This document shows, piece by piece, positions 3,148 to 20,130 of a stretch of DNA of 43,939 nt. Source of the DNA: Pelagibius sp. (GTDB lineage: Bacteria > Pseudomonadota > Alphaproteobacteria > Kiloniellales > Kiloniellaceae); contig NZ_JANQOI010000185.1 of the NCBI RefSeq assembly GCF_028289705.1, positions 1-43,939 on the forward strand, read 5' to 3'. The notes under the pieces are model-generated. The model made no database searches. It saw nothing but the letters and a program-made list of their open reading frames with translations, and was not told the DNA's origin. The translations under genes and the position numbers were made by a program. Position 1 is the stretch's first letter, and each line of letters begins with the position of its first letter.

Positions 3148-3905
3148 ATTCTCCCGGTTCCAGGTTGTCCAACAAACGGCCCTTGTTTTGAAAGATCTCA
3201 GCGGCGCTTTCGGCGCCCTGCCACAGCTCCTTGTGCAGGCGGTGCGGTTTTCTCCGCCGGCCGCCTTATCGCGCAAAGAGGTTCTCTTTGTTCAACGCGC
3301 AGGACTCTATCAATTGGGCGATGACACAAATGTGACGCTGCGATCATGCTTCTGGGTCATTCCTGTAGCGCCCCACGCGGGTCTTTCTGTCCCTTGGGCG
3401 TGGCGCAGCCTTCGAGCACCAGTGTTTCCCCAAGCCAGACGAAGCGTACCAAGGCGTTGGTCGCGACCTCGTAGGTCGGCATGATCCGCACTTCGACGTG
3501 TAGCATCAGCGACATGAAGATCAGCTTGCTGAGGCCGGTCCAGATCCGCTCCGGCGAGAAGTCGTAGACCGTTGGATCGAGGCTTCGATGGACCCAGAAT
3601 GCGCACAGCGCCTCTGTGAGCCTGACCACTGGTGAGTGGCCATGCTCGTGACATGGAAATTACGGCTTGGATCGAAGGCCGCAAGGATCAAGACCCTACA
3701 AAAACCAGAGTTCTCGCACTGGCTCAGCTACGGAAAAGACAGGCACTCCGGTGTACGCAGGGGTTGCTTCACGGGAGCACGGCTCGGAGAAGTCTGTGGC
3801 GCAAGTGCAAGCTGGTCCCTTAATTTGGTGAATGCGATAATCGAGCATTTCAGATGGCTGAAACGCGCATGGCGCGCATACTAGTGATCTGATATCATTT
3901 ATTGA
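3148..3905. other. Poorly coding stretch between phn operon and repeat protein
   Basis: This 758-base stretch carries the presumed phnC promoter at its left end and one weak open frame (3357-3629, listed separately). Several short frames on both strands overlap one another with no ribosome sites or recognisable domains. From about 3650 onward base composition is visibly less GC-rich than the phn genes, suggesting an acquired or decayed segment. Confidence 0.5.
3357..3629 (-). CDS. Hypothetical protein, 90 residues, doubtful
   Basis: Open frame starting with GTG and no convincing ribosome site. The translation looks partly protein-like (VYDFSPERIWTGLSKLIFMSLMLHVEV, then PTYEVATNALVRFVWLGETLVLEG) with a hydrophobic centre, but I recognise no family. 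A shorter start at the internal Met of MSLMLHVEV is possible. It could be a gene remnant in the less conserved stretch between phnC and the repeat protein. Confidence 0.25.
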   Translation of the reverse strand: MVRLTEALCAFWVHRSLDPTVYDFSPERIWTGLSKLIFMSLMLHVEVRIMPTYEVATNALVRFVWLGETLVLEGCATPKGQKDPRGALQE

Positions 3906-5258
3906 TTGCTATTTGCGAGGGCTCTCAGAGGTATCGTGCGACCAGTGATCACCGCCGAACCAATCGGGATTCCAGTGAGATGGTTTAAGAGAGCTTTCGC
4001 CGTGCAAGAGCGTAAAGAACTTGAACCCGGCGCCCTGTTGGAGCGAGCAGTTACCTTAGCACGCCAGATCGACAACCCGTTTGAACGTGCTGTCGCCCTG
4101 GCCGATGTATCACGCTACCAGGCGGAAATGGGTGATAGGTCAGGCGCGATGAGCACGGTTCAAAATGCGCTTGCGGGTGTGGGTGGGATACGGTCAGACG
4201 CTTGGCGTGAGAGGGCGTTGGATTTTATTGCCCGTTCCCAGACTGAGATGGATGATCAAGGGGGAGCGTACGCCACCGCATGCAAAATTCAAAACGCATC
4301 GCTACGCGCCGCCGCGTTCGTCAACGTTGCCGAGGCTCAAGCAACAGCCGGTGACGTGGTCGGAGCGCTCGCAACAGCACACAATATTGACGATGCATCG
4401 TTGCGCGCCGCCGCGCTCGTTTTTATCGCCGAATCGCAAGCAAACGCCGGTGACGTGGCCAGCGCTCTCGCAACGGCGCATGGTATTGCCGACGCATTCT
4501 GGGGCGCTGCGGCGCTCGCTAAGATAGCTTCTGCTCAAGCTGGCTTGGGAGATTGGGAAGGTGCAATATCGACTGCGCGTAAAGCTCTTGCCACCGAGCG
4601 TCGAATAGCTCACGCATCCAGGCCAATCGCGGGTCCATCCTGGCGAATCTCTAGTGCGCCCTGGTGCCGAATTGCTGACTCGCCCTGGTCTTGGCAGGCT
4701 TACTTGATCACGGGAATCGTCGAGGCGCTGGCAAAAGCAGGTGACGTGGATGGAGCGCTCGCAACCGCACGCGACATCGACAATGCATGGTCGCGTGCCA
4801 CTGGGCTCGCTACCGTGGCCGCAACCCAAGCCGAAGTGGGCGATCGGCAAGGTGTAGTGTCAACGATGCGCGAAGCGTTCATCGCGATAAACGAGGTCGA
4901 AGATGCGGCGATGTGCGCCGGAGTGGTCTGTGTACTGGCAGAGATCCAGTTGAAAGTGGGAGACCTAGCAAAGGCATCGGAAACCGCAGAAACGATTCAG
5001 AGCCAAGCCCTGAAGGCGACGGCGTTGGCCGAAATCGCCCGCGCCAGGGCGCAGGCGGGCGACCGGCAAGGCGCGGCCGACACATTCCGAGATGCGCTCG
5101 CCCACGCACCCGAGGATCAGCGAGGTGCAATCTTGGGCATCCAAGCAGAAACAGGCGACGTGGCAACGGCGCTGAAAAGTGTAGAGGCGATCAAGAGTCA
5201 CGCCCTGCGGGCGATGGCCTTGGCCGAGATTGCCGCACGGCTTGCCGCAACACGTTGA
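3906..5258 (+). CDS. Helical-repeat (TPR-like) protein of unknown function
   Basis: A 450-residue protein built almost wholly of tandem helical repeats of about 33 residues, with the pattern GD-x(3)-ALATA-x(2)-I-x-D-x(4)-RA-x-AL-x(2)-IA-x(2)-QA-x-AG. Repeats are clearest at residues about 115-220 and 270-450, interrupted near residues 225-265 by a Trp/Pro-rich insert (PSWRI, APWCRI, SPWSW). Such solenoids usually bind other proteins; nothing catalytic is seen. There is no signal peptide or membrane segment. The first possible start is TTG at 3906; GTG starts at 3936 and 4002 are equally plausible, the latter giving MQERKELEPGALLERA. Near-identical repeats at DNA level suggest recent expansion. 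Function unknown; no obvious partner nearby. Confidence 0.7.
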   Translation: MLFARALRGIVRPVITAEPIGIPVRWFKRAFAVQERKELEPGALLERAVTLARQIDNPFERAVALADVSRYQAEMGDRSGAMSTVQNALAGVGGIRSDAWRERALDFIARSQTEMDDQGGAYATACKIQNASLRAAAFVNVAEAQATAGDVVGALATAHNIDDASLRAAALVFIAESQANAGDVASALATAHGIADAFWGAAALAKIASAQAGLGDWEGAISTARKALATERRIAHASRPIAGPSWRISSAPWCRIADSPWSWQAYLITGIVEALAKAGDVDGALATARDIDNAWSRATGLATVAATQAEVGDRQGVVSTMREAFIAINEVEDAAMCAGVVCVLAEIQLKVGDLAKASETAETIQSQALKATALAEIARARAQAGDRQGAADTFRDALAHAPEDQRGAILGIQAETGDVATALKSVEAIKSHALRAMALAEIAARLAATR

Positions 5259-5327
5259 GTCCCATCTTGCCTCTATCGGAGAGTAGCGCAAACCGTGGGC
5301 TCTCACTATCCATGAACGACTAACGGG

Positions 5328-6050
5328 CTAAGCCTTCGCGGTGGAGAAGAGATAGCCGGCGCCGCGCACTGTCTTGATCACCTGCGGCTTTGCCGGGTCG
5401 CTTTCGATCTTGCGGCGAATGCGCGCGATGCGAATATCGATGGATCGGTCGAAGGGCTCCCAGTCGCGGTTGTGGGCAAGGTTCAGAAGTTGATCGCGGG
5501 TCAGCACGCGGTTGGGATGGTCGGCAAAGGCCTTCAGGAGATCGAATTCCATGGAGGTCAGCGGCACCTCGGTGCCGGAGGCCTCGAAGAGTTTGTGAGA
5601 TTCCAGGTTCAGGGTGTATTCGCCGAAGCGAACCGTGCGCACCGCCGTGCCGCCGTCGCCGGCGGTCTCCTCCTCCGCCTGGGAGGCGCGGCGCAGAACC
5701 GCCTTGATGCGCGCCAGAAGCTCACGCAGGTCGACCGGCTTGGCCAGGTAGTCGTCGGCGCCCATTTCCAGGCCGACGATGCGATCCACCACTTCGCCCG
5801 CGGCGGTCAGCATGATGATCCCGACATGGGTGTTTTCGCGCAGGAAGCGGGCAAGGGTTAGGCCGTCTTCGCCGGGCATGCGGATGTCCAGCAGAACGAG
5901 ATCGACGTCCTTGTCGTCGATCACCTCGCGCAGACCGTCGCCACCATCGACGGTGGTGACCTCGAAGTCATGGAGTTCCAGGTATTCCCCGATGGTCTCG
6001 CGAATGCCCGGCTCGTCATCGACGACGACAATGTGCTTCTGCCCCTGCAT
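5328..6050 (-). CDS. OmpR/PhoB-family two-component response regulator
   Basis: DNA-binding response regulator of 240 residues. The receiver (residues 5-118) has the acidic pair D11-D12, phospho-acceptor D55 in LVLLDIRMPG, and K104 in LAKPVD. The C-terminal winged helix (about 135-235) has the typical PLTSMEFDLL, RVLTRDQLL, DRSIDIRIARIRRKIE and VRGAGYLF blocks. I chose the ATG at 6050 because AGGAG lies eight bases upstream; a start at 6089 would add 13 residues without a ribosome site. It lies 66 bases downstream of the hybrid sensor kinase on the same strand, so the two are probably a pair, with phosphate passing from the kinase's own receiver or directly. Target genes unknown. Confidence 0.93.
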   Translation of the reverse strand: MQGQKHIVVVDDEPGIRETIGEYLELHDFEVTTVDGGDGLREVIDDKDVDLVLLDIRMPGEDGLTLARFLRENTHVGIIMLTAAGEVVDRIVGLEMGADDYLAKPVDLRELLARIKAVLRRASQAEEETAGDGGTAVRTVRFGEYTLNLESHKLFEASGTEVPLTSMEFDLLKAFADHPNRVLTRDQLLNLAHNRDWEPFDRSIDIRIARIRRKIESDPAKPQVIKTVRGAGYLFSTAKA

Positions 6051-6116
6051 CTCAAAGGCTCCTGAACTCGCTGTCAGCATAAGGTTCATTTGTGCAATCC
6101 CGCCGCTCCTCGTTTT

Positions 6117-9100
6117 TCATCGGTTTTCGGTTGCGGCGGTTTGGTCATCAAGGGGACGGTCGTCCTGCCGTCCGAGAATCTGGTCGACGAGCTCGCGCAC
6201 CTCCTCCAGGCTGAAGGGCTTCTCCATGTAGGGGCGGTGCACCCTCTGCAGGAAGACCCGGGCCGAGGGGCTCAGCGTGTCGCCGGAAACGAAGGCGGTG
6301 CGACTCAGCAATTGCGGATCGCGCCGCTCCAGGGCGGCATAGAGGCTGGGGCCGTCGAGCCGCGGCATGCGGACGTCACTGAGGATCATGTCAAAGCTCT
6401 GGCGGTCGAGCAGGGCCAGTGCCTTCTCCCCGGAGTCGGCGGTTTCCACTTCATGGCCTTCCGCTTCCAGGATATCGGCCAGCATCTGGGCCACGTCGGG
6501 CTCGTCATCGATGATCAGCACCTTCGCGCTGGTGCCGGACCCGGCCGGCGTCGGCTTCGCGCTCGGGCCAGGCTTTCCTGCAGGTTCGCCGCTGGCCGGG
6601 AGGCTGACGGTGAAGACCGCGCCCTTGCCGGGCTCGCCCCCGACGCTGATGCGGCCATCGTGAGCCTCGACGATCCGGTGGGTCACCGCCAGGCCGACGC
6701 CGGTGCCCTCGCCGATGTCCTTGGTGGTGAAGAAGGGATCGAAAATGCGGCTGCGGGTCTCCTCGGGAATACCGGGGCCGGAGTCGGCGATTTCCAGGAG
6801 GATCTCCTCGCGGTGCGCATCGTAGCGGATGGCGATGGCCAGCCGGCGCTCGCCCTGAACCTCCATCATGGCCTGCTGGGCGTTGACGATGAGGTTGGTG
6901 ACCACCTGGTTCAACTGGTCGGGGTCGGCATGAATCGACGGCACCGCCGGATCGAAGTCCACCGCCACCTCGATGTTGGCGGTGCGCAGTGAATAGCCGG
7001 TGACATCCAGGGTCGCCTGGACGATTTCCTTGAGGTCCACGGCCCGGCGTTCGGGCGGGCGCTGGCGGGCCATGGCAAGGAACGACTTTACGATCCGCGA
7101 GCAGCGGTCGGCGGCGTTGCCGATCTTGGTCGCCCGCTCGACAATCCGCGGATCGCCGGCCGTCTCCTTCATCAACTGCGCATGGCCGACCACGACGGAA
7201 AGCGGATTGTTGAGCTCGTGAGCGACGCCGGCCAGAAGGGAACCGAGCGCACTCAGTTTTTCGCTCTGGTAGAGCGCTTCGCGCTGGCGTGCCATCTCGG
7301 CTTCCACGGCGCGCCGCTCGGTGAGGTCGTAGGCGCTGGCGACGACCATCTCCTCACCCTGATACTCGATCAGGCTGGAGGTGATGGAGACCCAGATGTG
7401 GTTGCCGTCGGCCTTGCGAAACTGAACCTCGAAGCCCTCCAGAGTGCCCCGCTCGCGCAGCAGCTTCAGATAGCGCTGGCGGTCGCGCGGATCGACATAG
7501 ACATCGCGCACGTAGGAGGGCTCGCCGGACTGCTGAAGCTGTCCGAAAAGCACCCGGGAGGCGGGGCTCTCATAGATGATCAGGCCGTCGCTGGCCCGGG
7601 TCATGGCAACCGGCACCGGCGAGGCCTCGAGGATGCTGCGGACCAGGTTCTCGCTTTCCCTGAGGGCGCGTTCCATCTCCTTGCGGGCGGTGATGTCGGT
7701 GCGGGTGACCACGATCCCGCCCTGGCGTGTGGGCTGGTTGGCGAACTGGAACCAGCGCCCATCGGACTGCTGGAACTCCATGTCGGTGCCGAACTGCATG
7801 CGCAGGCGCTTGCGTTCCTCCAGCCATTCGTCGACCCGACCCTCCGCGCCGACGTACTGGCCGCGCTCGGCGCCGGCGCGGATGAAGTCGATCCAACGCA
7901 CGCCCGGCTTCAGGATATCGGTGCTCAGCTTGTTGAAGTCGCGGTAGCGCTGGTTGCAGGTCACCAGGAGGTCGTCGGCATCGTAGAGCGCGAAGCCCAC
8001 CGGCAGCGACTCCACCGCGTCCTGAAGGGTTTCCTGGGCCTGGCGGATCTGGGCCTCCTTCTCGCGCTGCTCGGTCAGATCGACGACACCGCCGATGGCG
8101 ATGGTCTTGCCGTCGATCTTGCCGAGACGCGAGAAGACGGCGCCCCAGAAGACCGAACCGTCGGCCCGCCGCAGCAGCGTTTCGCGACCGTCGAGACGGC
8201 CTCGTTCCATGAGCTCCGCGGTGCAGCGCACTCGGTCCTCGGGATCGGCGTAGGAGCGTTCCGACTTGTAGAGCTCGGTGACGGGCCAGTCGTAGCCCAG
8301 CAGCGCCGCCGCCTCCGGGCTGTGGTAGAGCACGATGCCGGTCTCGACGTCGGTGAGCCAGAGCGGGAAGGGATTGTTTTCAACCAGCTCGCGGAACTGC
8401 TGCTCGCTTTTGCGCAGCGAGATCTCCGCTTCTTTCAGCTTGGTGATGTCGGTGCGCACATAAACCCGTCCGCCGCCGAGGAGGGGGTGGGTCGTGGTTT
8501 GTTTCCAGCCGCCGCTCTTCAGCTCGAACTCGATGGGTTCGCTTTCGGACTCGTGGATCTGGCGGCGCCAGACTTCGGTAACTGTGGGCAACTGCCCCTC
8601 GGGGTGGCCGCCGAAAGATTTGAACAGGGGCATGGCACGGCAATAGGTCTCGTAGGCCGTGGTGCCGACCATGGTTTCCGGCGTTTCGTCATAGAGGTCT
8701 GAGTAGGCGGTGTTGCAGAGAACGAGTCTTTCTTCGGCATCGTAGATGGCAAAGCCGTTGGGCATGCTGTTGACGGCGTCCTGCATCAGCCGCCACAGAC
8801 GCTCGACCTCCGCTTCCGCGGAGACGCGCTCGCTGACATCGCGCAGTTCCGCGACCAGCGCCGGCTCGTCGCCGAAGTCGATGATCGAGACCAAGGCTTC
8901 GACCGGGAGTTCCCGGCCGTCACAGCTCCGCGCCATGAGGTTCAGCGGCGCAGCAACCGCCTGCGCGTTTTCCCCTTGCAGGAGGTCGTCCACGGTCGTC
9001 TGAAAGGCGTCCTGGCTTTCCTGCGTAAGGATCGCGGATTTTAGCAGCGTGGTGTCGGTCTCTGCCGTCTCGCCGAGGAACAGGGTGCGGGCGGCGTGGT

Positions 9101-9638
9101 TGGACTCCAGAATCCGCCCTGCGCGGTCGCACAGAAAGATCGGATGGAGGGCCTGGTCGATGATCGTCTTGCATTGGGCGACGATTTCGTCCCGGGCCAG
9201 CGCCGCTTTGCGTTCCTCCGTGATATCGAGGATACAGCCGCTGACCAGCAGCGTGCCGTCGGGCGCGGCGGGTCCGGCCGGCGACACCGACATCTCGTCG
9301 CGGAACCAAGCGTAGCGTTTCGCGCCGAAGGCGATGCGGTATTCGGCGGTGGCCGAACCGGTCCTTGCGGCCAGGGCCAGGGCTTGCTGGTAGCCGTCGC
9401 GGTCATCGGGGTGCAGCAGGGCGGCGACGGGGTCGTCACGGCCGCAAAGGTCGTCGGGGCGCCGGCCGATGCGCTGTTCGGCAGCGGTGCTGACGAAGTC
9501 GAGAACGAGTCGGGAGCTCAAGATCCGGCCGTGGTAGAGCACGATCGGCAGACGCGCCGCCACGAGGTCGAGCAAGTGCTGCTCGGCCCGGTCAGGCAGC
9601 TCCACAGAGCGGGGGCTTTCGGGCCTCGCCCGCGCCAT
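6117..9638 (-). CDS. Soluble multi-PAS hybrid sensor histidine kinase
   Basis: A 1173-residue cytosolic sensor kinase with no membrane segment. By eye there are six PAS-type domains (about 20-148, 150-272, 285-400, 410-525, 535-650, 662-775), most ending in the PAC signature DITE/DLTER. Then come HisKA with phospho-acceptor H807 in [11 protein letters not shown], the ATPase domain with DSGPGIPEE and [10 protein letters not shown], a Pro/Gly/Ser linker, and a C-terminal receiver (about 1038-1155) with D1044-D1045, D1088 in SDVRMP and K1140-P1141. ATG at 9638 follows AGGAGG at good spacing; the frame is open further upstream to 9842 but without support. It is the first gene of an operon with the OmpR-type regulator. 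The signal is unknown; PAS stacks often sense redox, oxygen or small ligands. Confidence 0.93.
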
Positions 9639-9961
9639 CGCCTTGCCTCCTGTTGCGCCTTTTTGTTGCCTGTCCAGGGTGACAGGAGAAGCCGGTCCAT
9701 GACACTGCGTCAGACCGGCCGTGAGGCAGAGTAGCCGAGGGCTACACCATAGGAAAGAAGCGAAGGATCCGTGCGGACCCGGCGCAAAGGCCGCGCCATT
9801 GTCCGCTGTTGCCTGCCATGGTTGTTGTGAGGGACCTGCCACCGTCCTTGCCTACCCCGATGAATGTCTACCCCGTTGACTGGAGCCTTGCCGCGTTCGG
9901 CCCGGTCGTCAGGAAACCGGACCAATGCGCCACCCAACGCACCGGCCCGGCTCATCCCGAT
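9639..9961. other. Intergenic stretch between kinase and DUF1127 gene
   Basis: 323 bases holding the promoter region of the kinase operon. A short frame on the minus strand (9710-9955) has no recognisable domain and no good ribosome site, so I do not call it. No repeat, hairpin or RNA gene was seen. Confidence 0.4.
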
Positions 9962-10273
9962 CTAGCGCCAAAGGCTGTGGGCTCGCCCGCGGTGGCCATG
10001 CAATTGCTCCTCGACTTCATATGCGGTGCTGATGATCGACGAGCGGTCCAAGCCGATATCCCGCAGCATGTGGTCCTCGAGGGCGGAGAGCTGCACCACG
10101 GTCCTGCGGACCCGCATGCGACGCGCGGTGGGACCGAAGACCTGTTGTGCGATCCCCGCGGCAGTGTTCACCACCTTCTGCACCAGGGAGGGTTTGACGG
10201 CTGCGCCGAAAGGACTTGCAGGCCGCACGCCCGGCAAGACCATTGGCGAGCCAAAGACATCAGAATTACTCAT
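9962..10273 (-). CDS. DUF1127 domain small protein
   Basis: A 103-residue basic protein whose C-terminal half carries the DUF1127 (YjiS-like) helix: VVQLSALEDHMLRDIGLDRSSI, about residues 60-82. DUF1127 proteins are abundant in Alphaproteobacteria; some small ones bind RNA and affect phosphate and stress responses, but this longer form, with a 55-residue lead, is uncharacterised. AAGGAG lies seven bases before the ATG. It stands alone, divergent from the DUF1007/NicO operon. No signal peptide. Confidence 0.82.
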   Translation of the reverse strand: MSNSDVFGSPMVLPGVRPASPFGAAVKPSLVQKVVNTAAGIAQQVFGPTARRMRVRRTVVQLSALEDHMLRDIGLDRSSIISTAYEVEEQLHGHRGRAHSLWR

Positions 10274-10853
10274 CGCTCTGCTCCTTGACTGAAAAGTGAA
10301 TGCTTGGTTCGCCCATCCGGCCGACTGGACCTCCGCCTCCCGGAGACCGCCGACCGGCGTGGATGCCAGATATAGGAGCGCCCTGTTTCGCCAGGATTTC
10401 GCGACAAGCGGCTTTTGGTATCAATTGTTCGCTACCGGAGCGCGGCGCTTTCGCCGCGCGGTGCCGGGGGTTGAAGGCGGAGGAGCGAGAGACGGCCGGC
10501 AGGACCGGCGCAGCATCGGCGGACAAGGCCGCTTATTCATGATATTCAACGACTTATAGGAAGTCTTCGAGGCGAAAGGCATGCCGTCGTATTCAAGCAT
10601 TTGCTGAACCGTCACCCTGAAACACTTGAAACAATTCCTGTCGCCCGTGCCTCAGAATCTCTGAAAAGCGATCGCAAGAGCCTCTGGCGCCGATTGTCTG
10701 CTCTACAGAACGCGTCGGCCGCTTGCCGGTCGCCTCGGCAGTTGTAATCCGTTAACCTTTCGTCAGAACCGGTGACCCTAGAGTTGGCACTGCCATTTGC
10801 GGCCGTTCGCTGCGACACTGGCGCCGGCGAGGTGACGGGAAGGAAGACGTCTT
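10274..10853. other. Long divergent intergenic region
   Basis: 580 bases between the DUF1127 gene (minus) and the DUF1007/NicO operon (plus). It holds a perfect 8-base-pair hairpin, GCGCGGCG-CTTT-CGCCGCGC, at 10440-10459, without a T-run. Open frames here are in conflicting phases and look like composition artefacts. I looked for a cobalamin or NiCo riboswitch before the metal exporter and could not support one. Confidence 0.4.
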
Positions 10854-11552
10854 ATGAGGCATGGTCGGCAAGAGAGCAGGACGGGTCTGGCTGGCCGTTT
10901 GAGCGGGTGCCTTCTGGGCGCGGGCCTGCTGCTGCTGTCCTTGGGTTCCCCGGCGGCCGCCCATCCCCATGTCTGGATCGATTCCAAGACAACGCTCCTC
11001 TTCGACGCAGAGCAGCGCGTGGCGGCCTTGGAGATCGTGTGGCGCTTCGATGAGTTCTACAGCATCTATGCGATCGAGGGGCTGGACAAGAACGACGACG
11101 GCGTCCTGGAGCCGGCCGAGCTGCAGCCCCTGGCGAAGCTGAACGTGACCTCTCTGAAGGACTACCGCTACTTCACCTATGTTCGGGCGAATGGCCGGGA
11201 TACGGCTTATGGCGAGGTCGTCGACTACGGCTCGCGCTTCGAAGACGGCATTCTCAGCCTGCGTTTCGTGCTGCCCCTGAAAGAGCCCGTCGATCCCCGC
11301 CTCGCCCAGCTTTCCTTCACCAGCTTCGATCCCAGTTTCTACATCTCGATAGAGCCGCAGCCTGAGGCGCCGGTGGTCCTGTCGGGCGCTGTCCCGGAGG
11401 GCTGCAGGGTCCTGCTGGACAGGGGTGACGAGACCGAGTCCCTCAATCTTGCCGAATCCCTCTTCGTCGACGCGACGGCAGCCGACAGCATCGCCGCGGA
11501 GTTTGCCTCCCGCGCGGCGCTTGACTGCGCCACCTCCACGGGCATGCGATGA
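10854..11552 (+). CDS. DUF1007 family periplasmic protein, partner of NicO exporter
   Basis: A 232-residue exported protein. The signal peptide runs to about residue 36 (hydrophobic LLGAGLLLLSLGSPAAA, cleavage before HPHVW). The mature start HPHVWIDSKTTLLFD and the later NDDGVLEPAEL (EF-hand-like) and FDPSFYISIE segments match the DUF1007 family, which is commonly found beside RcnA/NicO-type nickel-cobalt transporters. The HPH at the new N-terminus is an obvious metal-binding candidate (inference). Its stop overlaps the next gene in an ATGA junction, so the two are translationally coupled. Confidence 0.85.
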   Translation: MRHGRQESRTGLAGRLSGCLLGAGLLLLSLGSPAAAHPHVWIDSKTTLLFDAEQRVAALEIVWRFDEFYSIYAIEGLDKNDDGVLEPAELQPLAKLNVTSLKDYRYFTYVRANGRDTAYGEVVDYGSRFEDGILSLRFVLPLKEPVDPRLAQLSFTSFDPSFYISIEPQPEAPVVLSGAVPEGCRVLLDRGDETESLNLAESLFVDATAADSIAAEFASRAALDCATSTGMR

Positions 11553-12580
11553 CAGCCGCATTCCCGCGGCCCGGCCGGGCTCTGCGGCTTGGGCTTGTCG
11601 TTGCGTCGCTGCTGTTGGGGGTCTGCCTGATCGCCGGGCCGGAGGCGCTGGCCCAGACCTCTTTGGTTCCGCCGCCGGACGCGGCAGCCGAGGAGGCGGC
11701 GCCGAGCGGTCCCTGGCGCTCTCTGCAGCTCTATGCCGCCCAGGTTCAGGAGGACCTGCGCCGGCGGCTGCCCGGCGCCTTTCGCATGCTCGAGGTCGAC
11801 GCGGTGGAGGGCGCGGCGCTGCTGGTCTTCCTGAGTTTTCTTTACGGTGTCTTTCATGCGGTCGGCCCCGGCCACGGGAAGATCGTGATCTCCACCTATC
11901 TGCTGGCCAACGAGAGCGCCGTGAAGCGCGGCATCCTGCTGGCCTTCCTGGCCGCACTGGTGCAGGGCCTGGTTGCGGTCGTTCTCGTCGGCGGCCTGAA
12001 GCTCGTCCTCGACGTGACCAATCGAACCGTCGATGCGGCCGCCGAGATCCTGGAAAGCGCCAGCTATGCCATGATCGCGCTGGTCGGCTGCTGGCTGCTC
12101 TGGTCGTTGCTGACCCGGACAGGGGCCCTGCTGGCCGGCAACTCGGCCGCAGCCGGTCCGGAGATCGGCCATGGCCACGCCGATTCGGAGAACCCGGCGT
12201 CCTGCGGCCACAACCACACGCTCGACCCCGCCCTGCTGTCCCGCGGCGGGCTCGGCGCGAAGGCTTGGGGCATTGTCGCCGCGGTCGGCCTGCGGCCCTG
12301 CCTGGGCGCCATCCTGGTTCTGGTCTACGCTACCTTTCACGGGCTCTTCCTGGTCGGCGTCGCGGCCACGGCGGCGATGTCCCTCGGCACTGCGGTCACG
12401 GTGTCGGCGCTGGCCGTGATGACGCTCTACTCGAAGCGCCTGGCGATTGCGGCTCTGGGCGGACGTAGCCGCTGGGTCGACCGCGCCTATCAGGTCCTCG
12501 GCTTTGCCGGCGCGCTCCTGCTGATCCTGCTCGGCGGCCTCCTGTTCTTCGGCTCACTGGGCGGCTCAAAACCCTTCTGA
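11549..12580 (+). CDS. NicO-family nickel/cobalt exporter (RcnA-like)
   Basis: A 343-residue inner-membrane protein of the nickel/cobalt transporter (NicO) family. It has a signal-like first helix, then membrane segments at about 88-105, 128-155, 168-190, 238-262, 265-293 and 312-335. The family signature FHAVGPGHGK is at residues 102-111, with a second conserved GLRPCLGAI at 247-255. A His-rich cytoplasmic loop (GHGHADSE...CGHNH, about 208-223) is typical of RcnA-like exporters and suggests divalent metal binding. The ATG overlaps the TGA of the DUF1007 gene. Export of Ni/Co is the family expectation; direction and metal are not provable here. Confidence 0.88.
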   Translation: MTAAFPRPGRALRLGLVVASLLLGVCLIAGPEALAQTSLVPPPDAAAEEAAPSGPWRSLQLYAAQVQEDLRRRLPGAFRMLEVDAVEGAALLVFLSFLYGVFHAVGPGHGKIVISTYLLANESAVKRGILLAFLAALVQGLVAVVLVGGLKLVLDVTNRTVDAAAEILESASYAMIALVGCWLLWSLLTRTGALLAGNSAAAGPEIGHGHADSENPASCGHNHTLDPALLSRGGLGAKAWGIVAAVGLRPCLGAILVLVYATFHGLFLVGVAATAAMSLGTAVTVSALAVMTLYSKRLAIAALGGRSRWVDRAYQVLGFAGALLLILLGGLLFFGSLGGSKPF

Positions 12581-12638
12581 ACCGACGACGGTTCATTATC
12601 CTGTTGTTTTTTCTATCAAAATCTGAAACTCGTCCTTC

Positions 12639-12654
12639 TGTGGTAATCCTCACA
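12639..12654. promoter_or_regulatory. Crp-type palindrome upstream of LuxR-type regulator
   Basis: TGTGGTAATCCTCACA matches the TGTGA-N6-TCACA layout of Crp sites with one change in the left arm. It lies about 140 bases before the LuxR-type gene at 12793. The right half plus three bases (AATCCTCACA) recurs at 15360-15369 upstream of the second LuxR-type gene. A Crp-family regulator is encoded at 22314-23030. Confidence 0.4.
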
Positions 12655-12792
12655 GACCCTTCCCACGACCCGGCGTAGTGTCCTTCTCGACGGACATTGG
12701 TCCAAACAGCCATGAAGGCGACCTGCTGGACCGGGGAGACTTTTGTCAAACCGAAGGGGTTGGTGGACAAAAGGGGAAGGGAGAGCACCGTT

Positions 12793-13521
12793 ATGTCAGA
12801 AGTAAACACGCTATTGGTGGGACGTAACCGCCTGTTCCTGGAGGGGCTGAAGAGCCTCTTGAAGGGGAGCTCTTTCGAAGTCTGCGGCGAAGTGGACTGC
12901 GTGACGGCAATCGAAGACGAGGTTGCCGCTGCCGGGGAGCTCGATCTGATCCTCATCGAACTGCGCGGCGACATCTCGCTGCTGGTGGAGGATCTGCGCC
13001 GGTTGCAGGACGAGATGCCGGATACACCGGTTGTCGTGCTGACCGACGAACGGGACCCGCGCACCCTGGCCGCCTGCTTGAATGCCGGCGCCGATGCCTT
13101 TCTGCTGAAGGACATCTCGCTGGAGGCGCTGATCCACTCGCTGAAGCTGGCCATGATGGGCCAGAAGGTCATGCCGACCGATCTGGCAGCGGCCTTAATC
13201 AACGGCGCGGTGGGCGTTGCCGCCCTCGGCAACAAGCGCATCGAAGAGTACGGCCTGTCGGACCGCGAGCAGGAAATCCTGCGCTGCCTGGTCTATGGCG
13301 ATGCCAACAAGGTGATCGCCAACCGCCTCGACATCACCGAGGCGACGGTGAAGGTCCACATGAAAAGCCTGTTGCGCAAGATCAAGGCGGGTAACAGGAC
13401 GCAAGCCGCGATCTGGGCGCTGAACCACGGTTTGGCCCCGGGCTTGCCTCTGGGAGGTGGGGCCGATCCCATGTTTCCCGCTTCCAACGGGGCGCCGGTT
13501 CTCTCTCAGCTGACCGGATAA
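12793..13521 (+). CDS. LuxR/NarL-type regulator with atypical receiver
   Basis: A 242-residue transcription factor. The N-terminal receiver-like domain (5-120) lacks the paired acidic residues (VGRNRLF in their place), and the phospho-acceptor position is Glu (E56 in LILIELRGD), while the Lys of FLLKDIS is kept. The LuxR helix-turn-helix (about 165-225) is canonical: LSDREQEILRCL, NKVIANRLDITEATVKVHMKSLLRKI. Glu at the acceptor can mimic phosphorylation, so it may be active without a kinase (inference). ATG at 12793 is preceded by GGGAAGGGAG; the frame extends upstream to 12697 without support. Near the HfaB-type operon, its design recalls CsgD, the curli activator. Confidence 0.88.
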   Translation: MSEVNTLLVGRNRLFLEGLKSLLKGSSFEVCGEVDCVTAIEDEVAAAGELDLILIELRGDISLLVEDLRRLQDEMPDTPVVVLTDERDPRTLAACLNAGADAFLLKDISLEALIHSLKLAMMGQKVMPTDLAAALINGAVGVAALGNKRIEEYGLSDREQEILRCLVYGDANKVIANRLDITEATVKVHMKSLLRKIKAGNRTQAAIWALNHGLAPGLPLGGGADPMFPASNGAPVLSQLTG

Positions 13522-13671
13522 GCGTCAGCTCTTTGCAGGGCGTCAGCCGGCCTTCGGGCCTATGGCCGGCGCCACGACCGGCTCCCTTTCCTCACGCTTC
13601 GGCGGTCGGCTGCCTCGGTGGCCGACCGCCTCGCGCTTTCTCTTTTCCCAACAATCAGAGCGTTTCGTGTT

Positions 13672-13772
13672 TTGACGGCACCGGCCCGCTCCCCCTCCCG
13701 GCCACCCATAGGATACTGGCGCTGGGTGGTCGGGAGGGGGAGCGGGCTGGAACCGCTTCGACGCAAGTCGGA
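13672..13772. repeat. Dispersed two-hairpin intergenic element, copy 1
   Basis: The 25-base arms 13684-13708 and 13723-13747 pair at 24 positions plus one G-T wobble, around a 14-base loop. A small hairpin follows, TTCGAC-GCAA-GTCGGA, with a GNRA-type loop. Copies 2 and 3 are at 33245 and 35099. Here it sits between two convergent genes and could act as a bidirectional terminator, though there is no T-run. Confidence 0.85.
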
Positions 13773-13773
13773 T

Positions 13774-14346
13774 CTAACCGCCGACCTGTGCCGTCCAGGC
13801 ATCGATGGACCCGCCGCTGCCGGGATAGACGATGATCGCCCCCCGGCCGGAACCGGCGGTCACCATGTTGGTCCAGGATGCGATGGTGGCCGCGGTGCGC
13901 TGGCTGGTGAGAAAGCTCGGGGTCGAGGATCCGCCACTGCGCGGCGCGAAGAAGGGATTGAAGATCCCCGCACCGTCGACCGGGCTGCGCCGGAAGCTGC
14001 TGCCGCGCCCGGCAAAGCCGGGAAGGAAGGGGTTGGCCTGTGCGGTGACGAAGGCGTTGGATCCCGGGCCCTCGAAGACGTCGACCAGGGCACCGCTGGG
14101 CCCGCGCAGCAGATTGTCCGGCGTCAGGCCGAAGATTTCCTTTTGCAGGATCGCCTGCCGGCCCGCGAGGCTCATGCCCGCGCCGCCGCTGCCGCTGAAG
14201 GAGAAGGGCCGGTTGTTCCACTGGGCCTTGGCCTCCGGCACGGCGGTGGCCATTGCAAAGGCCAGGAGCAGGCCCGCCAGGCCAAGCTGCGCAAAGCGAC
14301 GGCCCTTCGGGCCGGATTGAGTCCAGGATTGAAAACGGAGCGCCAT
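13774..14346 (-). CDS. Secreted protein, possible fibre subunit related to the 17672 product
   Basis: A 190-residue exported protein with a signal peptide (hydrophobic LGLAGLLLAFAMATA, cleavage after AKA, about residue 41). The mature chain begins QWNNRPFSFSGSGGAGM and has few charged residues, many Gly, Ser and Phe, and no Cys. Its start follows the pattern Q-x3-RP-[FW]-x-F, then GG, Met and [RK]Q, also found in the product at 17672-18109. The ATG at 14346 follows GGGAG; the frame is open to 14400. It lies 159 bases downstream of, and on the same strand as, the second LuxR-type regulator. Family not recognised; role as a surface-fibre component is inferred from the neighbours. Confidence 0.7.
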   Translation of the reverse strand: MALRFQSWTQSGPKGRRFAQLGLAGLLLAFAMATAVPEAKAQWNNRPFSFSGSGGAGMSLAGRQAILQKEIFGLTPDNLLRGPSGALVDVFEGPGSNAFVTAQANPFLPGFAGRGSSFRRSPVDGAGIFNPFFAPRSGGSSTPSFLTSQRTAATIASWTNMVTAGSGRGAIIVYPGSGGSIDAWTAQVGG

Positions 14347-14505
14347 GTGATGACTCCCAAGGTGAGCGATGGAGCGCACCGTCGGGCGTCCGCGGCTCAC
14401 CGGTCCAGGAGCGAGCCTGCGGACTTCCGGGATGCGTAATCTATCACTTTTGGGGAATGGCGCCGGGAATCAATGTGCCGGAAGAGGTAATACCCCCATA
14501 TAGCC

Positions 14506-15258
14506 TCAGGACCAGCCGCCTGAGCCGTTTCTCGGGGTGCCGTTGGGGGTAGGCGCCGGCGGCTCGTCGTCGTCATCGGCGGCGTCTTGCCCGCGCAGGC
14601 TTTCGCGCAGCGGCAGCAGGGCCGTTGCCGCCAGCACGGCGGCCTCGGTGCGGTTGCGGCATTCCAGTTTGACCAGGATCGTGCGCACCAGCGATTTGAC
14701 CCTTGTCTCGCTTTCGCCGAGCCGCTCGGCGATCCCGCGGTTGCTCTCGCCGACCGCGAGCAGCGGCAGGATTGCCTGTTCGCTCTCGCTCAGGCGGCAG
14801 AGCATGTCGAGATGGCAGTAGGCGCCGGAACCGCCCTCACGCGGCGCCGCCATCACCGAGTAGCCCTCGGCCGCGAGGCTGAGGCTTTCCTCGAGGAAAT
14901 CGAGCCCGGCCTCCAGGAGGATCAATCCGTCGGCACGGGTGGCCAGGTCGCCGAGATAGGCGCATTTCGATTCGGGAACGGCCAGGAGGATGCGGGTGTT
15001 CTCTCCCGACCAGCGGTCGATCTGCTGGTCGAGACGGCCGAGCCGGCTGCCGTCCTCGGCCGCCAGGATCAGATAGTCGGCGTCGGGCTCGCCGCGCCCG
15101 TTGGCCGGAAAGATGCAGATGTCTCCGATTCGCGTGTTGGGGACGCGGCGCAGGGCCTCCAAAAGGGGCGCCGTATCGATCCCCGATGCCAACAACGCGC
15201 AGCGCCGGTCGCCGGGCTCTGCGCTGTGGTTCGGATCTTCAGCGGTGTGATCGAACAT
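14506..15258 (-). CDS. LuxR-type regulator with fully degenerate receiver (CsgD-like)
   Basis: A 250-residue transcription factor. The N-terminal 150 residues have a receiver-like alternation of strands and helices (CALLASGID, ADYLILAAEDG, RILLAVPES, DGLILLEAGLDF) but none of the catalytic residues: no acidic pair, no acceptor Asp, no conserved Lys. The C-terminal LuxR domain is clear: LSESEQAILPLLAVGESNRGIA, then ERLGESETRVKSLVRTILVKL. The tail is acidic and Pro/Gly-rich. The ATG at 15258 has GGAGG ten bases upstream; a GTG at 15330 is an alternative. It is divergent from the HfaB-type operon and upstream of the secreted protein at 13774-14346, as expected for their local regulator. Confidence 0.85.
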   Translation of the reverse strand: MFDHTAEDPNHSAEPGDRRCALLASGIDTAPLLEALRRVPNTRIGDICIFPANGRGEPDADYLILAAEDGSRLGRLDQQIDRWSGENTRILLAVPESKCAYLGDLATRADGLILLEAGLDFLEESLSLAAEGYSVMAAPREGGSGAYCHLDMLCRLSESEQAILPLLAVGESNRGIAERLGESETRVKSLVRTILVKLECRNRTEAAVLAATALLPLRESLRGQDAADDDDEPPAPTPNGTPRNGSGGWS

Positions 15259-15611
15259 CTTGGGACAACCTCCAGTCAGACAAGCATCGGTGCGATCGGC
15301 GCCGTTCCCAGGGATTCTGCGGATATTCACGCCTTCATATCGGGAATCCTAGCACGGGAAATCCTCACAATCTTTTGCGCAGGCATAGTAATACTTTGGT
15401 ATAGGGTATTAATACTCGAGTAGAAAAAGCCGAGATAGTTACCCAGTCTGATAAGTATTAGTGCGTTTTCATTTTTAAATACACGTTCGCTCACTTTATC
15501 ATTCAAATAGATCCCGTACCATCCCCGAGCATTGATCCGGCATCGCGAAGCAAGCACGCCGGGTCGCCAGAGACAGATCCCAGAGACAGATCGATGCATA
15601 GGGGATGGATC
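15259..15611. promoter_or_regulatory. AT-rich divergent control region of the HfaB-type operon
   Basis: 353 bases, strikingly AT-rich from about 15385 to 15510 compared with the genes around it. The heptamer TAATACT occurs at 15389-15395 and 15410-15416 and inverted (AGTATTA) at 15454-15460. The second copy lies in the perfect palindrome GTATTAATAC (15406-15415). AATCCTCACA at 15360-15369 repeats part of the Crp-like site at 12639. GGGTATTA at 15404-15411 also occurs, inverted, at 14488-14495 before the secreted protein gene. Confidence 0.45.
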
Positions 15612-16442
15612 ATGCGTGCAAGGGCTTGCGCCTTTATGGTCGCGGCCGGGATGGCACTGACGGCTTGCGCCGGCCCGCCGTTTCCGGATTCCGGTGTGCC
15701 GCCGGTCTTCAGCTTTCCGGTCACAAGCAACCAGACACCGTACAGCCAGTGCCTGAGCAGCCTGTCGCAGGCGCCGGGCAACAACCTGCCGGTCTTTTCC
15801 GTGGGCGAGGTCGCCGACAAGACGGGCCAGGTGAACTACGACGACAACGGCCATGCCCTGACCCAGGGCGTTTCCGAGATGGTCATCTCCGCGCTCTGGA
15901 AGACGCGCAAGGCAAGGCTGATCGAACGCCTCGACCTGCGCATTCCCCTGGCGGAAATGAAGCTCTCGGAGCAGGGCCGCCTCGGCCGTGGGCTGACGGA
16001 GTATCAGCTTCCGGCCAGCGACTTCATCGTCGTCGGCGCGCTGACGGAGCTGAACTACAACATCACCTCCGGCGGTGCCCGCCTCTTCGTCAACGGCATC
16101 GGCGGCGGCGGACGCACGGTGGTGATCAACGTCGCGCTGGACCTTCGTGTGGTCAACGCGCGCAACTTCTCGGTCGCCTATGCGACCTCCCTGCAGAAGC
16201 AGATCTACGGCTTCGAGGTCGAGGCCAATGTGTTCCGCTTCTTCGGCAACACCCTCATCGAATTTGACGCCGGCATGATCCGCAACGAGCCGTTGCAGCT
16301 CGGCGTCAGATCCGTCGTGGAGATGGGTGTCTACCTCCTCATGACGGACTTCCTAGGTCTTCCCGCTATCCAAGGCTGCGATCTCGTGGAGACCGACCAT
16401 TTCGCTGGATATCTGAAGGAGACAAACGATGAAAGCGAGTAA
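15612..16442 (+). CDS. CsgG/HfaB family outer-membrane secretion lipoprotein
   Basis: A 276-residue lipoprotein with lipobox ALTAC (Cys19). The body matches the CsgG/HfaB family along its length: VFSVGEVADKTGQVNYDDNG near the start, KARLIERLDLRIPLAEMKL, ASDFIVVGALTELNYNITSGGARL, INVALDLRVVN, FEVEANVFRFF, and NEPLQLGVRSVVEMGVYLL. CsgG forms the ungated outer-membrane pore that secretes curli subunits; HfaB does the same for the Caulobacter holdfast anchor. PVTSNQTPYSQCL after the lipid anchor is closer to HfaB. ATG 15612 follows AGGGGATGG; an in-frame ATG at 15594 is less likely because the lipobox would be too far in. It overlaps the next gene by 14 bases. Confidence 0.9.
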   Translation: MRARACAFMVAAGMALTACAGPPFPDSGVPPVFSFPVTSNQTPYSQCLSSLSQAPGNNLPVFSVGEVADKTGQVNYDDNGHALTQGVSEMVISALWKTRKARLIERLDLRIPLAEMKLSEQGRLGRGLTEYQLPASDFIVVGALTELNYNITSGGARLFVNGIGGGGRTVVINVALDLRVVNARNFSVAYATSLQKQIYGFEVEANVFRFFGNTLIEFDAGMIRNEPLQLGVRSVVEMGVYLLMTDFLGLPAIQGCDLVETDHFAGYLKETNDESE

Positions 16443-17671: not shown

Positions 17672-18109
17672 ATGAAACAGACAGTGATGCGCATTGCGGC
17701 GGGGGCTTCGAACCTCTTTGTCTATTCGCTCGTGACCATAGCCATGATCGGGCGCCTGGCCGGCGATGCCTCGGCGCAGATGTACGAGCGGCCCTGGGGC
17801 TTTGCCGCCCGCAGCGGCGGCAGCATGGCCATCTTCATGAAGCAGGTGGACGAGGGCATGCTCTCCTCCAGCAGCGGCAGCGGCCAGGCGGCAATTGCCG
17901 GCACCACGACCTATCTGGTCTGCGGCGGCGAAGGCTCCGCCGGTGCCCGCGGCAACTCTTCCTGCATCATCCTGAACAACTCCGACAGCGCGCTCAGCCT
18001 CGGCCAGGACGCCGTCGGCGACCAGACCGCGGAGAGCACGGTAACGCAGACCCAGAACAACGGCGCCGATGAGGTCAGCGAAATCCTCGAAGGCGACTCG
18101 ACCAACTGA
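17672..18109 (+). CDS. Small secreted protein, putative fibre subunit (HfaA-like role)
   Basis: A 145-residue exported protein. A long hydrophobic lead (to about residue 36) ends in ASA, giving a mature chain starting QMYERPWGFAARSGGSMAIFM. Residues 40-58 share the pattern RP-[FW]-x-F, GG, M, [RK]Q with the product at 13774-14346. The C-terminal half is rich in Ser, Gly, Asn and Gln (GQDAVGDQTAESTVTQTQNNG), reminiscent of amyloid-type subunits, with two Cys (84 and 98). GAGGAGG precedes the ATG. It is the last gene of the HfaB-type operon, followed by a strong terminator. Size and position match Caulobacter HfaA, but I cannot align it with HfaA, so the family may be new. Confidence 0.7.
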   Translation: MKQTVMRIAAGASNLFVYSLVTIAMIGRLAGDASAQMYERPWGFAARSGGSMAIFMKQVDEGMLSSSSGSGQAAIAGTTTYLVCGGEGSAGARGNSSCIILNNSDSALSLGQDAVGDQTAESTVTQTQNNGADEVSEILEGDSTN

Positions 18110-19620: not shown

Positions 19621-20130
19621 TTACCGAGCGTCAATCCGCCGATAGGTGAGGCGCTTACCCTCGATGCTCTGAATGGCTTTGGTGGTGCGCTCCATATCCT
19701 CAGTACCGAGGGCTGAGCGTTCGTTGTAGCGGAAGCCAAACTCCGCCAGGTGGCGCTTGAGGTGCTGTTCGCTGACGTGGTGATAGGTGCCGTTGATGCC
19801 GCGTTTGAGCAGCGAGAAGTAGCCTTCAATGGTGTTGGTGTGGGCATCGCCGCGAACGTACTCGTCAATGCGGTGGTTGACTGATTCGTGGCGGGCGAAC
19901 TCAGGGCCAAGAAGGCGGTACTGGCCCGCGTCGTCGCTCATGAGCGTTGAGGCGCGGTCAACCTGAGCAAACAGGATGGGGCGCAGGTTCTTAGCGCTGA
20001 CGCTCTTAACGTGGTAGGAGCGCACGCGGCCACCGCGCTCGACCAGGGTGAAGGCAGTCTCCTTGCCGGCGCTGCCGATGTTCTTCGGGTTGCGCTCGGG
20101 GACATGTTTAACTTCAATGAACTGCCGTCG
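19621..20130 (-). pseudogene. IS1595-type (ISXO2-like) transposase remnant
   Basis: The C-terminal half of an IS1595-family DDE transposase. It keeps FIEVKHVPERNPKN, the second catalytic Asp region (FAQVDRASTLMSDDAG), and the family end block HRIDEYVRGDAHTNTIEGY, followed by FSLLKRGINGTYHHVSEQHL and RHLAEFGFRYNERSA. The natural C-terminus KRLTYRRIDAR is intact. Upstream of about 20130 the frame loses similarity and meets a stop, so the N-terminal half, including the first catalytic Asp, is missing. It cannot transpose by itself. Confidence 0.85.

Follow-up and report, generated by a model that had tools for sequence, protein, structure and literature searches.

Conserved TAATAC words before an hfaB-type operon of Pelagibius as a probable operator array for neighbouring LuxR/NarL-type regulators

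What switches on export operons resembling those of curli and the holdfast anchor in Alphaproteobacteria, a class said to lack csgD? The question is left open in the cited part of a 2012 survey (PMC3521004), the source of the statement on csgD. It is raised again by a locus in which a short A/T-rich word recurs between a LuxR-type regulator gene and a divergent CsgG-family exporter gene. Here, the presence, conservation and fixed spacing of such words, the genome-wide specificity of a longer word and the linkage of NarL-like regulators to hfaB were computed.

An hfaB-type export locus with two LuxR-type regulator genes

The window, meaning the whole stretch of 43,939 bases analysed, is part of a draft genome (193 contigs, 5.41 Mb, 97% complete); the genus members named here are Pelagibius, including P. 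litoralis DSM 21314 (locus L035). The genes are arranged in the order RR on the forward strand, SEC and LUX on the reverse strand and then, divergently, the exporter gene (hfaB) and the genes for a 381-aa repeat protein and a 145-aa protein (Table 1). The ATG at 15612 is the more likely start of the exporter, though the ORF opens at 15594. The exporter scores above cut-off for Pfam CsgG (PF03783), and its match to NCBIfam HfaB is better than that to NCBIfam CsgG; the HfaB score, 160.4 bits, lies below the equivalog cut-off of 300. Six proteins of the locus were searched against Pfam and NCBIfam, with no match to the curlin, CsgE or CsgF families. The repeat protein is a probable exported subunit. 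Homologues of the 145-aa protein are present in 4 of 4 near relatives and 9 of 22 distant hfaB loci, and 11 of the 23 distant loci with hfaB, in the stretches as fetched, have a homologue of SEC.

Within the genus, hfaB and SEC are found in the same five of eight genomes and both are missing from the other three (G052, G054 and G057). In these, RR, LUX and a CRP-type gene are contiguous, the genes corresponding to 16429, 17672 and 21004 not lying between them. The segment 13774-22300 of the window constitutes a presence/absence block within the genus. An IS1595-type transposase gene (Pfam), without a match in stretches L032-L035, lies directly downstream of the hfaB operon at 19621-20025.

Table 1. 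Genes and conserved sequence elements of the locus, in window coordinates
Feature	Position	Strand	Evidence
RR: NarL-type regulator, receiver without phospho-acceptor Asp, NarL-like DNA-binding helix	12793..13521	+	Pfam GerE 3.4e-19, Response_reg 1e-9; NarL E 6.5e-23
SEC: secreted protein, family not recognised	13774..14346	-	no Pfam/NCBIfam match
Conserved block between the 14487 site and SEC; candidate promoter region of SEC	14443..14461	-	18/19 columns invariant
Site upstream of SEC: GTAATACCCCCATATAG	14487..14503	+	GTAATAC-N5-TATAG 3/5, GTAATAC-N5-TATCG 2/5
LUX: second LuxR-type regulator, divergent from hfaB operon	14506..15258	-	GerE 1.5e-10; fold nearest VpsT
Candidate extended -10 of LUX: TGCTAG (TGCTAA in L033)	15349..15354	-	within invariant run TAGCACGG
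Site 1: 20-nt invariant run 15378-15397 plus GTATAG 15399-15404	15378..15404	+	invariant 5/5 except column 15398
Site 2: TAATACT	15410..15416	+	TAATAC 15410-15415 invariant, 21 bp after site 1, 5/5
Conserved TAGTTACC, faces site 3	15436..15443	+	8-nt invariant run
Site 3: inverted TAATACTT	15453..15460	-	8-nt invariant run, 45 bp from site 2, 5/5
HfaB/CsgG-type outer-membrane exporter	15612..16442	+	Pfam CsgG 1.6e-24; NCBIfam HfaB 4.7e-47
Large secreted repeat protein, 381 aa	16429..17574	+	no family match; homologues in 21/22 distant hfaB loci
Small secreted protein, 145 aa, putatively of the hfaB operon	17672..18109	+	no family match

Recurring words and their statistical weight

An earlier note on this DNA had pointed to TAATACT, twice direct and once inverted, upstream of the hfaB operon. 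The three copies lie exactly where it had placed them, at 15389-15395 and 15410-15416 on the forward strand and at 15454-15460 on the reverse strand, and no further exact copy exists in the window. Three copies compare with 0.21 expected for the whole window, a number that none of 100 shuffles reached. The palindrome GTATTAATAC (15406-15415) and the word TAATACCC, inverse of GGGTATTA (14488-14495), were likewise located correctly. The related GGTATTA has two copies in the window, as many as were reached in 5 of 100 whole-window shuffles. In a local test with 5000 dinucleotide shuffles of 15259-15611 (GC 0.48), three copies of TAATACT never arose; some heptamer or other occurred three times in 922 shuffles, so that, with the freedom to choose a word taken into account, the cluster does not convince by itself. 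Thus, the argument that such clustering is unlikely by chance holds for the chosen word and is weaker than the note had made it.

A longer word, GTAATAC-N5-TATAG, had been overlooked. It is common to 14487-14503, upstream of SEC, and 15388-15404, in the gap between LUX and hfaB. Allowing one mismatch, the 5.41-Mb draft genome contains two such sites, both at this locus, which argues for a dedicated local regulator.

Conservation of the words within the genus

The window and loci L032-L035 make up the five of eight genus genomes that carry hfaB. In the alignment of their LUX-hfaB gaps, 156 of 337 columns (46%) are invariant; pairwise identities are 65-68%, except for L032/L033 (96%) and L034/L035 (78%). 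All three TAATAC words of the gap sit in invariant runs in all five genomes, an outcome that favours the earlier proposal, which had named lack of conservation in orthologous gaps as its refutation. The longest run (15378-15397, 20 nt) includes the first TAATACT and was equalled in none of 20,000 column permutations; further runs coincide with TAATAC at 15410-15415 and with AAGTATTA at 15453-15460. Sites 1 and 2 are separated by 21 bp and sites 2 and 3 by 45 bp in every genome. The full heptamer of site 2 is present in four genomes, L034 reading TAATACA. The copy upstream of SEC is likewise kept in all five, as GAGGTAATACCCCC, followed by TATAG in three and by TATCG in two (L032 and L033).

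The same alignment disposes of one element of the original motif. The GGTATTA word at 15405-15411 is conserved in four of its seven columns, L034 and L035 reading GGTGGTAATAC, and the palindrome GTATTAATAC is not conserved; neither can therefore be the recognised core, and the palindrome was ruled out as such.

That A/T-rich words should have clustered by chance, in a gap itself rich in A and T, would be in keeping with the frequency of triplicate heptamers in the local shuffles. Set against it are the fixed spacing and the conservation in five of five genomes in a gap with 46% invariant columns overall; this footprint largely refutes chance, which we consider practically negligible. From the conserved sequence and the fixed distances in the relatives it follows that the words are probable docking sites of a neighbouring regulator. 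The earlier suggestion of a site for a LuxR-type regulator is thereby strengthened, as conservation makes a linked regulator the best reading; binding itself, together with the identity of the binder, activation rather than repression and the promoter positions, is what we infer from these data.

Might the words instead be core promoter parts or features of the transcript? Two promoters have to fit into the gap, TATAG is similar to a -10 motif and a sigma-70-like hit is present at 15474-15502. The words, however, occur in both orientations, with 21-bp phasing, and recur before a third gene; the 5 bp between GTAATAC and TATAG are too short for a -35/-10 pair, and no Rfam match speaks for an RNA element. 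We regard this explanation as very improbable.

A binder encoded elsewhere, be it CtrA, a protein of the FNR/CRP type, IHF or another LuxR, is improbable too, though somewhat less so. The tie of the sites to a local protein is one that we infer; a CtrA-type TTAA-N7-TTAA with one mismatch overlaps site 3 in L032-L035, and at L108 a similar TACCCC palindrome has another GerE gene and a gene for an ABC transporter next to it. The CtrA-type match is, however, not shared by the window, whose gap contains neither TTAA-N7-TTAA with up to one mismatch nor TTGAT-N4-ATCAA with up to two. Two-mismatch FNR-type matches in L032 and L033 are positioned away from the TAATAC words, and the long word GTAATAC-N5-TATAG has no site elsewhere in the genome.

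An altered site 1 in genomes lacking hfaB

In the three hfaB-less genomes a single site remains before the LUX gene, in the form of TACTACCTAGGGGGTA, TACCACCGAGGAGGTA or TACCACCGAGGGGGTA. All three conform to TACYACC-KA-GGRGGTA, with inverted 7-2-7 geometry, and retain the flank CAGGC[AT]T[AG]GTA upstream of LUX. TAATAC and GTATTA are absent from their stretches (L007-L009). In all eight genomes, 33 nt separate site 1 from TAGCA (forward strand), the complement of part of the candidate LUX -10. Since this spacing also holds where hfaB is missing, site 1 is apparently part of the LUX promoter and persists without hfaB. Estimated by hand from the candidate -10, site 1 would be centred near -57 to -61 of LUX.

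The inverted 7-2-7 arrangement is of the NarL type in the cited parts of PMC4549865 and PMC2718512, the former giving TACCCCTAAAGGGGTA as an engineered NarL test site. No 7-2-7 site with fewer than three mismatches was found in the five hfaB-bearing gaps. Genome-wide, the pattern TACYMCCNNGGKRGTA with up to one mismatch falls below a control pattern in seven of the eight genus genomes and above it in G054 (3 vs 1). As it is not enriched, we claim no wider regulon. An occurrence of GTAATACTCATGTATAG in G052 (L050), judged from the ORF list alone, was set aside as probable chance.

Properties of the two regulators

RR has receiver and GerE domains (PF00072 and PF00196, both above the Pfam cut-off), and among proteins of solved structure NarL is the nearest to it in sequence (E 6.5e-23). 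In RR of all eight genus genomes Glu occupies the position of NarL Asp59, and G-R-N replaces the acidic pair. All eight, including those where site 1 is altered, share one recognition helix, TVKVHMKSLLRKI; the NarL counterpart is TVKVHVKHMLKKM. In NarL, the Lys and Val that match this helix contact DNA. Residues Lys188, Val189, His190 and Lys192 (numbering from 12790) are invariant in 15 homologues picked for alignment, L041 and L043, with a KAHLN helix, being among those left out. Some distant RR homologues (L036, L037, L040, L044 and L045) have Asp at the phospho-acceptor position.

LUX has no recognised receiver domain. Its predicted fold is closest, among solved structures, to VpsT (ranks 1-4, E 4e-9, TM-score 0.36-0.37 over both domains); the models being moderate (pLDDT 76), fold matches are used as support. 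VpsT is a biofilm regulator with an atypical receiver that carries the c-di-GMP motif W[F/L/M][T/S]R, of which no match was found in RR or LUX. The LUX helix of the hfaB-less genomes departs from that of the hfaB-bearing ones (T to A, L to M). Against the NCBIfam NarL equivalog RR scores 112.5 bits and LUX 34.4, against the CsgD equivalog 65.3 and 26.6, in each case below the cut-off of 250. At four distant loci where both could be compared, RR is conserved at 45-59% and LUX at 32-35%.

Regulator genes and words at distant hfaB loci

Twenty-two hfaB loci outside the genus were surveyed for genes, L124 (on a contig of 3,881 bases) being excluded. A GerE gene lies in the stretch at 20 of them (all except L046 and L047), and a gene encoding T[VI]KVHxK at 17, several pairs of loci coming from close relatives. 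Upstream regions numbered 34; removal of four that overlapped and of two from L037, which resemble those of L036, left 28, of which 21 precede hfaB and seven SEC.

The NarL heptamer is given as TACYYMT in the cited part of PMC4886647. Before the 21 non-redundant distant hfaB genes this pattern has 15 copies in 11 regions against 3.6 expected, a count that none of 500 shuffles reached; for the reversed control pattern, too, the count is somewhat above expectation (12 vs 6.7 expected). Before the seven distant SEC genes there is one copy (0.6 expected). Control DNA was taken from 11 longer loci, where other DNA contains 29 copies against 23.4 expected and A/T-rich tiles 8 against 8.8. Out of 1260 letter permutations, TACYYMT ranks second in the distant regions, the overlapping TACTYMY standing above it. 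A hand tally by helix type, omitting the L096 region with its short contig, places the pattern in 7 of the 15 hfaB regions that have a KVHxK regulator and in 3 of the 5 that have none, so that it does not track helix type. In the gap of the near set, exact TACYYMT occurs once in the window (at site 3), once in L034, twice in L035 and not in L032 or L033; none is at sites 1 and 2.

Of the 23 regions scanned upstream of distant hfaB genes (400 nt each), six contain TAATAC or GTATTA, in every case at -140 to -214; the conserved TAATAC copies of the five near genomes lie 143 to 223 bases before the hfaB ATG. Of the 28 regions, 4 contain GTAATAC (0.43 expected), and TAATACT, with 2 copies in the 34 regions against 0.65 expected, is not clearly enriched. 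In L042, where the word reads GTAATACCCGCTATAGGG, the only GerE gene found is RR-like. L067 (longer stretch L120) resembles L042 in having GTAATAC and an RR-like gene with no LUX-like gene in the stretch; L040 and L044, which also have GTAATAC words, contain both RR-like and LUX-like genes. A de novo EM search of 30 distant upstream regions returned A/T-rich words and recovered neither TACYYMT nor TAATAC, so that the distant evidence rests on preselected words. A regulator-word link throughout the class, beyond the genus, is plausible but unproven.

A proposed mechanism and the choice of binder

We propose that the TAATAC words are probably an operator array for the LuxR/NarL-type regulators of the same locus, with RR the likelier binder, which would co-activate LUX, the hfaB operon and SEC. 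RR, active without phosphorylation, would bind TAC-starting half-sites, occupying the three phased copies in the LUX/hfaB gap and the one before SEC. Binding would raise LUX, the exporter operon hfaB-16429-17672 and SEC together, and LUX would serve as partner or feedback regulator. A single regulon fits, because SEC and hfaB come and go together and share the site.

The sites could instead belong to LUX: sites 1-3 would then form an autoregulatory and hfaB-activating operator, like that of CsgD beside csgBA, with RR acting elsewhere or only upstream. LUX is divergent from hfaB, site 1 lies in its presumed promoter region, and its predicted fold comes closest to that of the biofilm regulator VpsT. 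LUX is further favoured because its helix varies exactly where site 1 varies, between hfaB-bearing and hfaB-less genomes. On the other hand, RR is favoured because GTAATAC occurs at L042 and L067 alongside an RR-like and no LUX-like gene in the stretch, although LUX may be elsewhere in those genomes. Moreover, conservation at the four distant loci is lower for LUX than for RR, and the NarL-like helix belongs to RR. We therefore consider LUX as binder unlikely, if well worth keeping in mind, and lean towards RR.

More tentatively, and with somewhat less than even confidence, we suggest that a phosphorylation-independent NarL-type regulator with a VpsT-like degenerate partner, acting through NarL-type TAC words before hfaB, may be the missing master switch of CsgG/HfaB systems in Alphaproteobacteria, conserved well beyond the genus.

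Comparison with known systems

The NarL/NarP operators of Escherichia coli (heptamer TACYYMT; inverted 7-2-7 pairs) resemble the present sites in the TAC-starting words, in the use of single words, in the 7-2-7 geometry of the three hfaB-less genomes and in the RR helix, which is nearly that of NarL. Unlike them, the sites of hfaB-bearing genomes are TAATAC-based, asymmetric and not full TACYYMT; RR, unlike NarL, lacks the acidic pair and carries Glu instead of the phosphorylated Asp, and the target is a fibre/anchor operon rather than nitrate respiration. The curli system, CsgD with csgDEFG/csgBAC, offers a similar layout, a LuxR/FixJ-type gene divergent from CsgG-family fibre genes across one control gap. 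It differs in that the exporter here is hfaB-type, no curlin, CsgE or CsgF accompanies it among the six proteins and two regulators are present. The likeness to Vibrio cholerae VpsT, the best fold match of LUX, amounts to a TM-score of only 0.36, and the c-di-GMP motif of VpsT is absent from both regulators. With the Caulobacter holdfast anchor HfaABD the locus shares an HfaB-like CsgG-family exporter with secreted partner genes, although the HfaB score is below cut-off and the partner proteins match no family; the cited part of PMC6707917 names no such regulator for HfaABD.

Literature searches on HfaB/CsgG with LuxR and on the Pelagibius holdfast, which covered few subscription papers, found nothing, and among the matches listed by a looser search no title treats this subject. 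LuxR/NarL operators are of a known kind, and the present instance, its target and the regulator pair appear undescribed in the literature searched. With its footprint defined and a candidate regulator named, the proposed operator is directly testable and, if the proposal is true, a nitrate-type DNA word has been reused, without phosphorylation, for surface structures.

Two further observations concern other genomes. One 20-kb stretch of G075 (L126) combines, at 3349-13854, three genes of the hfaB type with four matches to the 16429 protein, beside NarL-like regulators; this genome has five hfaB matches in all of this type. A TACCCC-N4-GGGGTA-type palindrome recurs at G051:C44:55725-55740 and at L108 1501-1516 (G055:C20). 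At L108, where its context was examined, it lies between a divergent GerE-domain gene and an ABC-transporter ATPase gene (Pfam), and may be an operator for another regulator of the LuxR type.
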